From Ottowia flava (GTDB taxonomy: Bacteria; Pseudomonadota; Gammaproteobacteria; Burkholderiales; Burkholderiaceae_C), in assembly GCF_008017535.1 (NCBI RefSeq), contig NZ_VRUA01000002.1:310001-374000 (forward strand): a stretch of 64,000 nucleotides of DNA, given 5' to 3'. The notes beneath the pieces are model-generated. The model saw only the letters and a program-made list of their open reading frames with translations, was not told the origin of the DNA and ran no database searches. This document shows, piece by piece, positions 22,690-26,989 of the stretch; position 1 is the stretch's first letter; every line of letters begins with the position of its first letter. Made by a program: the position numbers and the translations under genes.

Positions 22690-23766
22690 ATGCCCGCCCC
22701 CGCCCCCCGCCCCCACCGCATCGCCGTCATCCCGGGCGATGGCATCGGCAAGGAAGTCATGCCCGAGGCGCTGCGTGCGCTGGATGCGGTGCAGCGCAAG
22801 TTCGGCGTGCCACTTGAGCTGGTGCCGATCGATTGGGCGAGCTGCGACCACTACGCCAAGACGGGCGAGATGATGCCGCCCGACTGGAAGAACCAGCTGT
22901 CGGGCATGGACGCGATCCTGTTCGGCGCCGTGGGCTGGCCGGCCACCGTGCCGGACCATGTGTCGCTGTGGGGCAGCCTGCTGAAGTTCCGGCGCGAGTT
23001 CGACCAGTACATCAACCTGCGCCCGGTGCGCCTGTTCGACGGCGTGCCCTGCCCGCTGGCCGGGCGCAAGCCGGGTGACATCGACTTTCTGGTGGTGCGC
23101 GAGAACACCGAGGGCGAATACACCAACCTGGGCGGCGTGATGTACGCTGGCACCGAGCGCGAAATCGTGCTGCAGGAAACGGTGATGAGCCGCCACGGCA
23201 CCGACCGCGTGCTGAAGTTCGCCTTCGAGCAGGCCGCCGCGCGCCCGCGCCAGAAGCTGGACGTGGCCACCAAGAGCAACGGCATCGCCATCAGCATGCC
23301 CTGGTGGGACGGCCGCGCCGACGCCATGCACGCCAACTACCCGCAGATCGCGGTGGAGAAGCACCACATCGACATCCTGTGCGCGCGCTTCGTGCTGCAG
23401 CCGCAGCGCTTTGACGTGGTGGTGGCCAGCAACCTGTTTGGCGACATCCTGTCCGACCTGGGCCCCGCCTGCACCGGCACCATCGGCCTGGCGCCGTCCG
23501 CCAACCTGAACCCCGAGCGCGCCTTCCCCAGCCTGTTCGAGCCGGTGCACGGCTCCGCGCCCGACATCTACGGCCAGGGCATCGCCAACCCGGTCGCCAT
23601 GGTGTGGTCGGCCGCGCTGATGCTGCAGTTTTTGGGCGAACAGGCCGCGCACGACGCCATGCTGGCCGCCATCGAACAGGTGCTGGCGCAGGGCCCGCGC
23701 ACGCGCGACCTGGGCGGGCAGGCCAGCACAGCGGAGATGGGCGCGGCCATTGCCGAGCGCATCTGA
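22690..23766 (+). CDS. dmlA: D-malate / tartrate dehydrogenase (decarboxylating)
   Basis: NAD-dependent beta-decarboxylating dehydrogenase of the isopropylmalate/isocitrate family, oxidising D-malate to pyruvate and CO2 and often also tartrate. It has 358 residues, as in E. coli DmlA. Motifs: AVIPGDGIGKEV at the N-terminus, FGAVGWPATVPDHVSLWG near residue 80, RENTEGEYTNLGG near 137, and the metal-binding block SNLFGDILSDLGP near 245. The signature separating it from LeuB is the HVSLWGSLLKFRREFDQY region. It is isolated, with no LysR regulator adjacent. A GGAG ribosome site lies 10 bp upstream of the ATG at 22690. Confidence 0.92.
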   Translation: MPAPAPRPHRIAVIPGDGIGKEVMPEALRALDAVQRKFGVPLELVPIDWASCDHYAKTGEMMPPDWKNQLSGMDAILFGAVGWPATVPDHVSLWGSLLKFRREFDQYINLRPVRLFDGVPCPLAGRKPGDIDFLVVRENTEGEYTNLGGVMYAGTEREIVLQETVMSRHGTDRVLKFAFEQAAARPRQKLDVATKSNGIAISMPWWDGRADAMHANYPQIAVEKHHIDILCARFVLQPQRFDVVVASNLFGDILSDLGPACTGTIGLAPSANLNPERAFPSLFEPVHGSAPDIYGQGIANPVAMVWSAALMLQFLGEQAAHDAMLAAIEQVLAQGPRTRDLGGQASTAEMGAAIAERI

Positions 23767-23999: not shown

Positions 24000-24371
24000 A
24001 TGCTGTACCGCACCACCTCCGCCGTCACATTGATGCTCGCCCTGGCCGCCGCCAACAGCGCGTCGGCCCAGACGCCCTCTCCCGCTGCAAGGAGCGCCGA
24101 GTTCGATCGCACCTTCGCTGTGATGATGCTGCCCGTGCGTCAGGCGACGCTGAACGCCTGCCTGAAGCACTTCCCGCAAAGCTCGCCGGGCATCCAGGCC
24201 GAGTGGAACGCCCAGATGGCCAACCCGGAGCTGAAGGCGCAGACGCAGACGCCGGCGTTCCAGCAGGAAGTGGCCAGCTTCGACCCGAAGATCGCCGAGC
24301 AGATGTCGACGCCCACCGGCCGCAAGGAGATGGAAAACGCCTGCCGCGGAGGGATTGGCCAGGGCAAGTGA
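24000..24371 (+). CDS. Small exported protein, unknown function
   Basis: A 123-residue protein with a clear signal peptide (residues 1-23, MLYRTTSAVTLMLALAAANSASA then cleavage). The mature part is helical and Gln/Lys-rich with two Cys (about 48 and 117) that could form a periplasmic disulfide. No catalytic motif is recognised. The ATG at 24000 is preceded by a weak purine-rich site (GAAAGG). About 40 bp downstream begins an open stretch without a start codon that encodes a similar Lys/Glu/Gln-rich tail, possibly the remains of a related gene. Confidence 0.6.
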   Translation: MLYRTTSAVTLMLALAAANSASAQTPSPAARSAEFDRTFAVMMLPVRQATLNACLKHFPQSSPGIQAEWNAQMANPELKAQTQTPAFQQEVASFDPKIAEQMSTPTGRKEMENACRGGIGQGK

Positions 24372-24411
24372 CCCTTCGCACGGCGCGGTGACCGCGCCCT
24401 TCACACGCTGA

Positions 24412-24576
24412 CCACCGCTCACCCTCCCAACCGCGTCACCGCACATCATTGCCTACACCCAGACCGCTGAGTTCGCGGTCAAGCGCAAGCAGTACCACGA
24501 GGAGCAGCGCGCCGAGGCCGCCAAGCCGGGGCAGGCCCAGAAGCTGGAGGAGCAGTGCGGCCGTCTGCTGAAGTAA
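24412..24576 (+). pseudogene. C-terminal fragment of a lost coding sequence
   Basis: An open frame from after the TGA at 24409 to the TAA at 24574-24576, with no ATG, GTG or TTG start in frame. Its end reads AYTQTAEFAVKRKQYHEEQR, then AEAAKPGQAQKLEEQCGRLLK, which looks like genuine protein (amphipathic, Glu/Lys/Gln-rich, one Cys). It is in a different frame from the small exported protein just upstream. Probably the tail of a gene whose 5' part was lost, perhaps when the adjacent palindrome arose. Weak evidence. Confidence 0.35.
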
Positions 24577-24589
24577 GGCTGGCGGCTGG

Positions 24590-25443
24590 TTTTTAGGGAT
24601 CGAAAGCCGAACTGGCCCTACGGGGATATGCGCGGGCAGCTATTGAATTTGTAGTCGCTCGTTCGTTGCGCGCTTGTTGGACGTTGGTGTGTGAACGACG
24701 TTGGGAGGCCGGGTCTCGGCCCGGCGGCCGAGGCACTTTTCTTTGCTTCGCCAAAGAAAAGTCCCCAAAAGAAAGGCGACCCCACGTCTGCGACCGCGCT
24801 GCTGCGCAGCGGGGCAAACCTGCGTCGCGCTTCTGACGGGGTGGGCCGCAGAACTCACTGCGCGCTCTGCGAGCGCTCCGTTCAGACAACCGCGGCCAAT
24901 CAGTTCACGAAGCGGCTGCATCCTGCGGTGCAGCCGCCACCCCGCCAGAACCACGCCGCAGGCGCAGCCTCAAGGGGTGATGAACAGCCACTCGGGCCAT
25001 CGCTGCGCTCGGCCGCGAATCCAGGGCCGAGCGCAGCGATGGCCCGGATGGGCTTGCCACCCCTCTGGACGTGCCGAGAAGCGCAGAGCGGGCGGTGGGC
25101 GCGGGCACCGAAGGATGCCCGCGCTGCGTGCTCTGACTCGCTGCAGTTGTCTGAGCGAAGCGCCAATGGCGCGAAGCGAGTTCTGCAGCGCCACCGCTCG
25201 ATCGAGCATCGCAGGTTGCCCCGCAGCGAAGCGCAGGGGACACGGCCAGTGGGGTCGCCTTCTTTTGCCTTCTTTTCTTGGCGAGTCAAGAAAAGAAGGT
25301 GCGCCGCCGGGCGCATGTCCCGGCCTCCCAACTTCGGTCAAGCGACAACGCCCAACGAGCGCGCAACGAACAAACCACTACAAATTCAATAGCTGTCCGC
25401 GCAGACCACCCTAGGGCCAACGCCTCAAAAGGCACAAAAACCT
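24590..25443. repeat. ~850 bp imperfect palindrome bounded by inverted copies of the ~65 bp repeat
   Basis: The region folds back on itself about an axis at 25019-25020. At the centre, 24994-25012 and 25027-25045 are perfect 19 bp complements around a 14 bp spacer. Similarity between the arms extends outward with small indels to the ends: both carry AAGAAAAG-rich hairpin-like patches (24736-24772 and 25265-25302), a GGCGACCCCAC-type block (24777-24785 and 25251-25259), a TTGGGAGGCCGGG-type block, and at the outer edges complete ~65 bp repeats (24590-24654 minus, 25378-25443 plus). No transposase-like ORF is present. Long frames on both strands mirror one another and are consequences of the symmetry, so I call no genes here. 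The element ends 1 bp before the dacB stop. Confidence 0.85.
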
Positions 25444-25444
25444 C

Positions 25445-26989
25445 TTAAGGCGCATCCCGCACCGCCCACTCCACCAACCGGTCCAACGCCGGCCGCGCTG
25501 CCGGCGCGTTGGGGTGGTTGATCAGCCCGACCACCGCGTACTTCGCGCCCGAGCGGCCGTACGCGTAGCCCGCGATCGCCGTCACGTCACGCAGGGTTCC
25601 GGTCTTCAGGGTGGCGTTGCCGATGGCGTCGGAATTCGGGTTGCGCGCGCGCAGGCGGCGGGCGGTGCCGTCGATGCCGGCGATCGACAGCGACTGCTCG
25701 TACACCGCCGCGTTCGGGCTGCCCGCGGCCTGTTGCAGCAGCGCGGTCAGCGACGCGGCCGTCACGCGCTCGCTGCGCGACAGGCCGGAACCGTTTTCCA
25801 CCACCGGCGTGGCGCGCACGCCAAAGCGCTGGCGCCACCAGCGCGCCAGGGTGTTGCGCGACTCGGCGAAGCTGCCGTGGCGGTCGCCCGCGGCCGACAG
25901 GGTCAGGAACAGCTGCTGCGCCATCACGTTGTTCGAGAACTTGTTGATGTCGGCAATGATCTCGGTCAGCGGCAGTGAAAAGCCGGTGATCAGCGGCTGG
26001 CCGGTCACGGCGCGGTCGGCCCATTTGACCTGGCCGGACAGGCCACCGCCGGCGCCGCGCCACATGGCCTCGAACACGCGCGGGGCGTAGCTGGCCGGGT
26101 CGACGTAAGCGACGCCCCAGGTTTGTTCGCCGCAGCTGAGCGGGAAGCGCCCACTGAACGTGACCTGGGTGGGCTGGGTGAAGTCGGCCGCCAGGCGCGA
26201 CTTCCAGTTGCCACAGGCGCCGTTGGCGGCCGGCACCTCGGCCGGGATGGCCACGCCGGCCATGGGCGGCTCGGTTTCGACGCGCACGCGGCGCGTGGCG
26301 ACGTCGGGGTAGAACTTGAGGATCAGCGCCTTGAAGTTGACCAGCAACCCGTCCGGCCCGACGTTGTAGGGGCGCAGTGGGTCGTCGTCAAAAGCGGCCG
26401 CGTCGTGCGGCGGCAGGCGGAACACGCTGTTGTCCAGCAGGATGTCGCCGCGGATCTCGCGCACGCCCTTGTCGCGGATGGCGGCGATCAGCTCCTGCAG
26501 GCGCTCGACCACCAATTTCGGGTCGCCGCTGCCCTGGATCAGCAAGTTGCCGTTCAGCACGCCGTTGCTGATGTAGCCCTGGGTGTAGACGCGCGTCTTC
26601 CAGAAATAGGTGGGGCCCAGCAAGTCCAGCCCGGCGTAGGTGGTGACCAGCTTCATGACCGACGCGGGGTTCATCGGCACGTCGGGCTGCCAGGCCAGGC
26701 GCGGCATCGGCAGCGCAGGGGGCGCGGCGCTGGCGCTGCGCTCGCCAGCCGGAGCGGCGCCGGCCGCTGCGTGACCGACCGCGCCGGGCGGCGGCGGCAG
26801 CGGCGCGACAACCATGGCGACGGCACTTTCGGGCACGTTGGCGCGGGTCAGGGCCTGCACCACCTCGGGCGGCAGGACGCCCTGCGCGGCGGCGTGCTGC
26901 GCCAGGGCTGCCGGCAGTGCGCCCGCCAGCAGCCAGACCGCCGCGCGCGCTGCACGGCCGCGCGCGAGGGAAACATTCGGTGACTTCAT
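25445..26989 (-). CDS. dacB: D-alanyl-D-alanine carboxypeptidase/endopeptidase (PBP4, peptidase S13)
   Basis: Periplasmic penicillin-binding protein trimming or cleaving peptidoglycan crosslinks. It has 514 residues. Residues 1-35 form a signal peptide. The three PBP motifs are present: SVMK (Ser110, Lys113), SNN in NKFSNNVMAQQ near residue 345, and KTG in LKTGTLRDVTAIAGY near 468. A Pro/Ala-rich insert (~62-95) precedes the catalytic domain and is unusual for the family. The gene stops 1 bp from the large palindrome, so its 3' end may be affected by that structure. It is divergent from the DMT permease with a 98 bp gap. Confidence 0.94.
   Translation of the reverse strand: MKSPNVSLARGRAARAAVWLLAGALPAALAQHAAAQGVLPPEVVQALTRANVPESAVAMVVAPLPPPPGAVGHAAAGAAPAGERSASAAPPALPMPRLAWQPDVPMNPASVMKLVTTYAGLDLLGPTYFWKTRVYTQGYISNGVLNGNLLIQGSGDPKLVVERLQELIAAIRDKGVREIRGDILLDNSVFRLPPHDAAAFDDDPLRPYNVGPDGLLVNFKALILKFYPDVATRRVRVETEPPMAGVAIPAEVPAANGACGNWKSRLAADFTQPTQVTFSGRFPLSCGEQTWGVAYVDPASYAPRVFEAMWRGAGGGLSGQVKWADRAVTGQPLITGFSLPLTEIIADINKFSNNVMAQQLFLTLSAAGDRHGSFAESRNTLARWWRQRFGVRATPVVENGSGLSRSERVTAASLTALLQQAAGSPNAAVYEQSLSIAGIDGTARRLRARNPNSDAIGNATLKTGTLRDVTAIAGYAYGRSGAKYAVVGLINHPNAPAARPALDRLVEWAVRDAP

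Follow-up and report, generated by a model that had tools for sequence, protein, structure and literature searches.

The window, a 64,000-nt stretch of the Ottowia flava genome, contains an Iso_dh-type gene at 22690-23763, followed by a small ORF at 24000..24371 (plus strand, no Pfam match) and, convergent with the latter, the dacB gene (25445..26989, minus strand; Peptidase_S13). A near-palindrome lies between these two reading frames at 24590..25443, its outer limits being approximate and set from the alignment of the arms and from ten genome copies. The dacB ORF ends at 25445, directly to the right of the element, as the initial annotation had it. A fragment of a lost gene had also been noticed on the left, and an open C-terminal frame of 41 residues plus stop is present there (24451-24577, ending in ...QKLEEQCGRLLK*). 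From the in-frame stop at 24409 onwards, this frame contains no ATG, GTG or TTG, and we regard it as a putative remnant. No sigma-70-type promoter was found in 24350-25600.

The complementarity claimed for the two arms was borne out by a local arm-to-arm score of 385, compared with 99 ± 9 (maximum 131) in 200 dinucleotide shuffles, and by 73% identity over 820 columns when one arm was aligned with the other by blastn, which is above background. The perfect core, previously put at 19 bp, proved to be slightly longer: the axis, as read from the sequence (24993..25046), is a perfect 22-bp stem formed by 24993-25014 and 25025-25046 around a 10-nt loop (25015-25024). Folded as RNA, the stretch 24590-25443 gave z = -27.5 (20 shuffles). 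The near-palindrome is a confirmed, real feature. A chimeric assembly is an unlikely source of it, because the arms differ by ~27% and other species, with genomes assembled into a single contig, have similar tail-to-tail pairs.

The genome (4.12 Mb, 53 contigs) contains ten copies of the palindrome, this one included. The nine others are 84-96% identical to it over the aligned part and 86-97% over the core, and all ten are palindromic, since all match the query on the opposite strand as well. The conserved part runs, by eye, from ~24703 to 25332, outside of which the copies diverge into an AT-richer short repeat. Using a one-arm profile (nhmmer), the element was resolved into two units of ~305 nt with their heads outside and their tails at the axis, subtype A in the left arm (head to tail at 24708..25013, plus strand) and subtype B in the right arm (head to tail at 25026..25324, minus strand). 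Only pairs, and no solo units, were found in this genome. Its A units are 87% identical to each other and its B units 90%, with A-B identities of 66.9% within an element and 68.2% between elements. Two diverged units placed tail to tail thus make the palindrome. A local inverted duplication, one of the origins first suggested, is not supported, because the arms are two diverged subtypes common to the ten copies. An ancient A-B dimer was sought in a heterodimer tree; the best edge split 35 of 60 dimers (support 0.66, 37 arms on one side), the random-pairing control gave a mean of 31.4 and a maximum of 42 over 15 edges, and, as the split is not significant by this control, the evidence for such a dimer is weak.

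The edges of the element had been described as complete inverted copies of a dispersed repeat. They (~50-65 nt) do consist of an inverted short dispersed repeat, located at 24606..24655 (plus strand) on the left flank and at 25367..25419 (minus strand) on the right one (limits approximate, from the arm alignment and a genome search), but this repeat does not define the end of the element. At three copies of the genome (L006, L009 and L010) the flanking repeats are, by eye, in direct orientation, and a fuzzy motif search in the loci of named genomes described below located the repeat near 13 of 97 unit heads, versus 1 in shuffled flanks; for both reasons we consider it a frequent neighbour. At least 40 matches to it (E up to 1) are present in the genome, ten in palindrome copies and at least 30 elsewhere. 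The repeat reads about GCCTCTGGCCCTAC....ATCTGCGCGGGCAGCTAT (24613-24655) and is thus present away from palindromes too.

Distribution, arrangement and mobility

Matches to the repeat (E up to 0.001) were obtained in 19 of the 29 genomes of the genus, our own included, and, at the same threshold, in 109 of 200 genomes and 87 of 141 genera of the family; other Comamonadaceae carry the unit singly or in pairs. Many of the family-level matches are short sub-blocks, and matches of at least 250 bp were found in at least 13 genera. An exact 20-base pattern retrieved 105 stretches from named genomes, and the 80 of them that were listed (L189-L268) were analysed. They come from Acidovorax, Hylemonella, Ottowia, Curvibacter, Simplicispira, Comamonas and Giesbergeria and from records with a name at a higher rank only. 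A Nocardioides match (L196) was taken as a chance 20-mer and discarded, the profile search having given no unit there. Units up to 900 bp apart were joined and 22 clusters at locus ends were dropped, which left 65 clusters, all distinct in sequence and some with partial units. Every cluster with two orientations (49/49) was tail to tail, the plus unit preceding the minus unit; the remaining 16 showed one orientation (15 single units and one double).

Two of the larger clusters, L228 and L247, belong to Acidovorax Leaf78, whose palindrome (L228, perhaps L247) holds duplicated stretches joined by N, which the hairpin probably caused during assembly; N runs are also present in the Root219 locus L238. 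Long repeats so rich in hairpins can disrupt short-read assembly.

Among the matches listed, solo units are more numerous than pairs in three genomes of Ottowia (at least 14 solos and at least 1 pair in G001, at least 10 and 2 in G025, at least 8 and 2 in G027), and G003 has at least four pairs and at least four solos. A more sensitive scan of 36 solo regions detected no second unit, only a split unit in L328. Downstream of many Ottowia solo-unit tails (L295-L306 and others) come a further dispersed repeat (CCCTCTCCC...GGGAGAGGGTTGGGGTGAGGG) and short TAGCTGC-type repeats, which together form composite repeat clusters. The unit is present in all Ottowia genomes of at least 3.0 Mb and absent from nearly all of those up to 2.9 Mb (the exception is G012, 2.7 Mb), several of the small ones being incomplete assemblies. 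Seven plasmid records matched, one of which, from Comamonas odontotermitis, covers at least 80% of the query; no annotation lies under the listed plasmid matches, and phage sequences gave no match. No description of the repeat was found in the best-ranked open-access papers on such repeats, which does not imply that it is unpublished.

Empty sites were observed at two loci. None of the 21 congeners examined carries the unit at dacB, and in six of them, by our own reading, the Iso_dh-type neighbour is kept near this gene. At a second site, between genes that we take from the flanking proteins to be rsmD and coaD, the pair is absent from all 16 congeners showing both flanks (17 were examined, and G011 shows one flank only): the gap measures 125-297 bp in 15 of them, while that of G010 is filled by 956 bp of other sequence, with no unit. 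The 297-bp gap of G003, which is among the closest genomes, seems by eye to hold an inverted remnant of the short repeat. Seven solo sites are common to two or three Ottowia species, in the same orientation and with 82-92% unit identity; these orthologous units are no closer than paralogous ones (means of 86-90% in three genomes and 78%, from three pairs, in G003). One occupied site is common to four Acidovorax genomes. Target duplications were sought at 35 solos and 30 pairs with word lengths of 4, 6, 8 and 9, and direct matches between flanks exceeded those of re-paired flanks by ~1.3 sd at most, exact ends being uncertain and old duplications being subject to decay.

A rival reading is that the family is purely selfish REPIN-like DNA, the inverted pair being the replicative form, the positions reflecting tolerated insertion near 3' ends, and the hairpins being recognised in single-stranded form by a transposase (Y1/RAYT, for instance) that acts in trans. 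The units showed no association with Y1 transposase genes. Y1_Tnp matches are present in 21 of the 29 genomes of the genus, with one in our own, and they occur in 15 of 19 genomes with units versus 6 of 10 without them (Fisher p = 0.39); the unit-bearing genomes G005, G006, G007 and G011 have none at threshold. Within 30 loci around Y1 genes no unit was found, the only signal being one weak short-repeat match (E 0.048) by the Y1 gene of our own genome. This gene lies beside what is presumably a glutamate-synthase-like gene in our genome and in 9 of 10 congener loci (Y1/glutamate-synthase-like loci: L112, L114, L115, L117, L118, L120, L124, L110, L113 and L125), so that it looks vertically inherited and RAYT-like. 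With neither a genome association nor a unit beside the Y1 loci, the RAYT was rejected as mobiliser. The purely selfish reading is also opposed by the missing target duplication signal (with the uncertainty of the ends just mentioned) and by the excess of solos over pairs in the three Ottowia genomes. In its favour are the tail-to-tail order as the sole two-orientation arrangement, the multiplication of whole pairs indicated by the A-A, B-B and A-B identities, the empty sites at dacB and rsmD-coaD, and changes that are Watson-Crick rather than wobble (see below); REPINs are described in PMC3116915 as doublets of inverted REPs that show compensatory changes and are linked to RAYTs. We consider this reading possible but rather doubtful.

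G027 has 20 Y1_Tnp matches, several with equal scores and some split into two frames, which are probably an IS200-type element with decaying copies.

Conserved fold of the unit

The fold was analysed on an alignment of 77 of the 80 nonredundant units (L046:1387-1737, L075:1501-1751 and L083:1503-1736 were left out). RNAalifold gave 46 pairs, 28 of them changed on both sides, and ribosum scoring gave a consensus of 95 pairs. Standard pairs occupy 91.7% of the cells, compared with 81.5% when columns were shuffled and 40-46% when partners were slid, and compensated cells number 802, compared with 268 ± 20 in shuffles and up to 165 with slid partners, although the structure was derived from the scored alignment itself and is thereby favoured over the slid controls. 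In the 95-pair consensus, 54 pairs are changed on both sides versus 36.2 ± 2.1 in shuffles, and further pair types, a weaker measure, number 118 versus 111.8 ± 3.6 (24 of 500 shuffles were as high), it being understood that related sequences can beat such column shuffles even without structure. Helix 4 (columns 80-93 with 281-294) closes a multi-branched domain with its strands ~190 nt apart, and 9 of its 13 pairs covary. Helix 2, which also covaries in the family, corresponds to the second hairpin of the dacB-side element (ACTTTTCTTTG / CAAAGAAAAGT; 24735..24762, plus strand), the arm itself being outside the 77-unit alignment. The comparative data show that the unit keeps a predicted multi-branched secondary structure.

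A permutation test in three genomes (p = 0.96, 0.92 and 0.15) led us to reject coevolution of the two arms within an element, and a second test on four genomes agreed. Two other genomes resemble our own in that the arms are no more alike within an element than between elements. This indicates that it is the fold of the unit that is conserved, not the long palindrome, which appears as the outcome of placing two homologous units face to face and is not maintained base by base. The structured stretch of several hundred nucleotides suggested at first is therefore to be placed in each ~305-nt unit and not in the whole 850-nt palindrome. In Rfam 15, no family reached the gathering score in 24300-25700; the eight matches (E up to 1) were all below it.

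The covariation might also be mutational, template switching and conversion between arms or copies rewriting hairpins in blocks without selection on structure. Compensated changes are reported to arise by template switching (PMC8794818). The changes between Acidovorax Leaf191 and Leaf78 at an orthologous site lie, by eye, mostly in hairpins, and a right-arm hairpin of Leaf78 is the reverse complement of the left-arm one, so that conversion may occur at times, although this locus contains the N-joined duplicates and may be misassembled. The orthologous units being no closer than paralogous ones points in the same direction. However, local correction of hairpins does not explain the covariation of the closing helix, whose strands are so far apart, the two arms within an element resemble each other no more than arms from different elements do, and a symmetric DNA mechanism would not be expected to leave the asymmetry between strands described next. 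A purely mutational origin is thus unlikely in our opinion. The 77-unit alignment offers a clear case in which covariation as proof of selection on RNA can be set against template switching.

Either strand folds better than its shuffles do (mean z of -4.0 and -4.2, 13 units each), and the folding energy is lower on the head-to-tail strand in only 11 of 76 units. Among the 70 well-kept pairs in both folds, 29 columns have more A-C than G-U and 8 have more G-U than A-C (p = 7.5e-4, a guide only, because alignment columns share ancestry); per unit, 47 lean to an A-C excess, 5 to the opposite and 25 to neither. This excess suggests that wobble is tolerated on the tail-to-head strand, which is what a single folding strand, either RNA or single-stranded DNA, would show. 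G-U and A-C cells together make up only ~2.5% of the cells, and much of the compensation may accordingly be block conversion or template switching.

Asymmetry of this kind, together with the lower folding energy, would also favour transcription of the tail-to-head strand into a large structured RNA, for instance within the 3' UTR of the gene on the tail side, that would serve stability or regulation and not termination. At 21 of 27 merged solo sites the gene on the tail side points into the unit (p = 0.012), but the head-side gene also does so above expectation (18/27, p = 0.03). Moreover, the lack of a sigma-70-type promoter in 24350-25600 and of any Rfam match above gathering, as well as the absence of a fixed gene neighbour among the copies, speak against such an RNA, and we think this explanation very unlikely.

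Terminator-like heads and gene context

In 71 of the 77 units the head opens with a perfect GC-rich stem, 5 bp or longer and mostly 6-7 bp, after which eight positions include five or more T, and the remaining six have no perfect head stem; the head being shared by descent, these 71 units are not 71 independent observations. Three main compensating types of stem were found (TGCGCC/GGCGCA, TCGCCC/GGGCGA and TCGGCC/GGCCGA). The same test was positive in 0 of 77 units at the tail start of the complement and in 0 to 4 of 77 at 11 inner offsets on both strands, which shows that the predicted terminator-like structure is confined to the unit head. In the dacB-side copy an independent terminator scan was positive at both ends, each facing inward transcription: the left hairpin and T-rich tract (24713..24744, plus strand) face transcription from the left, and the right ones (25290..25315, minus strand) face transcription from dacB. 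In total, this generic scan gave 3 sites in the locus versus 1.7 ± 1.4 in shuffles, within one sd. The T tracts are interrupted by C, and for this reason the predicted terminators may be weak. The terminator-like head is on the head-to-tail strand, the one with the lower folding energy in only 11 of 76 units, and the fold and the terminator may therefore have separate purposes.

The copies are intergenic and are found in excess between convergent genes. By our own reading of the gene calls, 5 of the 10 copies of our genome lie between convergent genes, 4 between tandem genes and 1 between divergent ones. In the named-genome loci, pairs with genes called on both sides are in convergent context in 14 of 41 cases (25 tandem, 2 divergent; p = 2.7e-4), the background, taken from the same loci with a simple in-house gene caller, being 274 gene pairs, of which 34 (12%) are convergent, 202 tandem and 38 divergent. 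Twelve further clusters have no gene call on one side, and no cluster of these loci lies inside a called gene. Solo units are convergent in 19 of 36 cases (14 tandem, 3 divergent), and in 14 of 27 once orthologous sites were merged by hand (p = 8e-7; one site with mixed calls). An excess of this type may also be expected if insertions into promoters are purged.

The above data demonstrate a multi-copy family with tail-to-tail pairing, covariation at the level of the unit and absence from the same sites in congeners. The explanation that we tentatively prefer, as a plausible one, is that the element beside dacB is a copy of a dispersed, non-autonomous, structured intergenic repeat family of the Comamonadaceae, whose pair would end or shield transcripts on both sides. 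The unit would act on transcripts. Transcription arriving from either gene would first meet a GC-rich hairpin and then a T-rich tract, which is why the pair might work in both directions and keep convergent genes apart. Judging from the sequence features, the pairs are possibly bidirectional terminators; if true, this would show a mobile repeat reshaping transcript ends genome-wide. Copying would probably involve whole pairs in our genome and solo units in some other Ottowia species, the agent being perhaps an enzyme in trans or recombination. A wider proposal, which we regard as possible though somewhat improbable, is that the repeat represents a new class of large (~305-nt) structured nucleic acids across the Comamonadaceae, the A-B heterodimer, its form in many genomes, being a mobile two-way boundary for transcription with a conserved multi-branched fold and a role beyond termination; transcription from either side would then yield one correctly oriented copy and meet a terminator-like head.

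Relation to known repeat classes

With REP, BIME and REPIN sequences (PMC3116915) the repeat shares its dispersed, extragenic, inverted hairpin pairs, the compensatory changes and the lack of a gene of its own; all 49 tail-to-tail clusters are inverted doublets and none was called inside a gene. It differs from them in the ~305-nt unit, which is not a short REP (the short repeat being near only 13 of 97 heads), in the multi-branched fold, in the terminator-like head and in the lack of a RAYT-type association, both across genomes and in the 30 Y1 loci. Bacterial MITEs such as QMITE2 (PMC10969869) are likewise non-autonomous and intergenic, with symmetric ends and structured transcripts. The terminal inverted repeats are here whole arms, unlike MITEs with short terminal repeats, and the pair behaves as non-autonomous and mobile, being absent from 21 of 21 and 16 of 16 congeners at the two sites. 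MITEs are typically AT-rich, whereas the GC content of the present element is 0.677 (24708-25324), against 0.674 for the window, with 0.54-0.55 in the outer flanks. No parent IS was found at the loci examined.

The repeat thus seems, from sequence comparison, to behave like REP/REPIN and MITE-type repeats. We file it under neither name because the tests for a RAYT link and for short REPs were negative and a target duplication signal was lacking (the ends being uncertain). In the initial annotation, a MITE-like element, a structured RNA and an inverted duplication had been offered as readings. What stands is a dispersed, non-autonomous, structured element, on account of the ten copies, the presence/absence differences at two sites and the strong covariation; a classical MITE is not well supported, given the GC content (0.68 versus 0.67 in the window), the missing target duplication signal (with uncertain ends) and the lack of a parent IS at the loci examined.

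Large structured RNAs of bacteria in Rfam include HEARO, GOLLD, ROOL and others. The repeat resembles them in having several hundred nucleotides with covariation, and is distinguished from them by the Rfam result for 24300-25700. The layout of an intrinsic terminator, a GC-rich stem plus a T-rich tract, is seen in the 71 of 77 heads and in both arms here. SPRITEs differ in size and layout from pairs of ~305-nt units. They come from another phylum. In PMC10969869 they are named as a repeat family with a Rho-independent-terminator-like sequence.

A presumed IS30-type ORF lies close to units at a Curvibacter site. Four Hylemonella/Curvibacter genomes have, at one site, DNA with a GC content of 0.55-0.57 beside or between units (L255:3597-4923, L221:5904-7292, L213:535-2456 and L208:2847-4700). 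Three of these stretches hold, according to Pfam, a Peptidase_M74, a DUF4826 protein or the presumed IS30-type transposase, and that of L208 has a long ORF and one unit found. Palindrome centres may be insertion hotspots.
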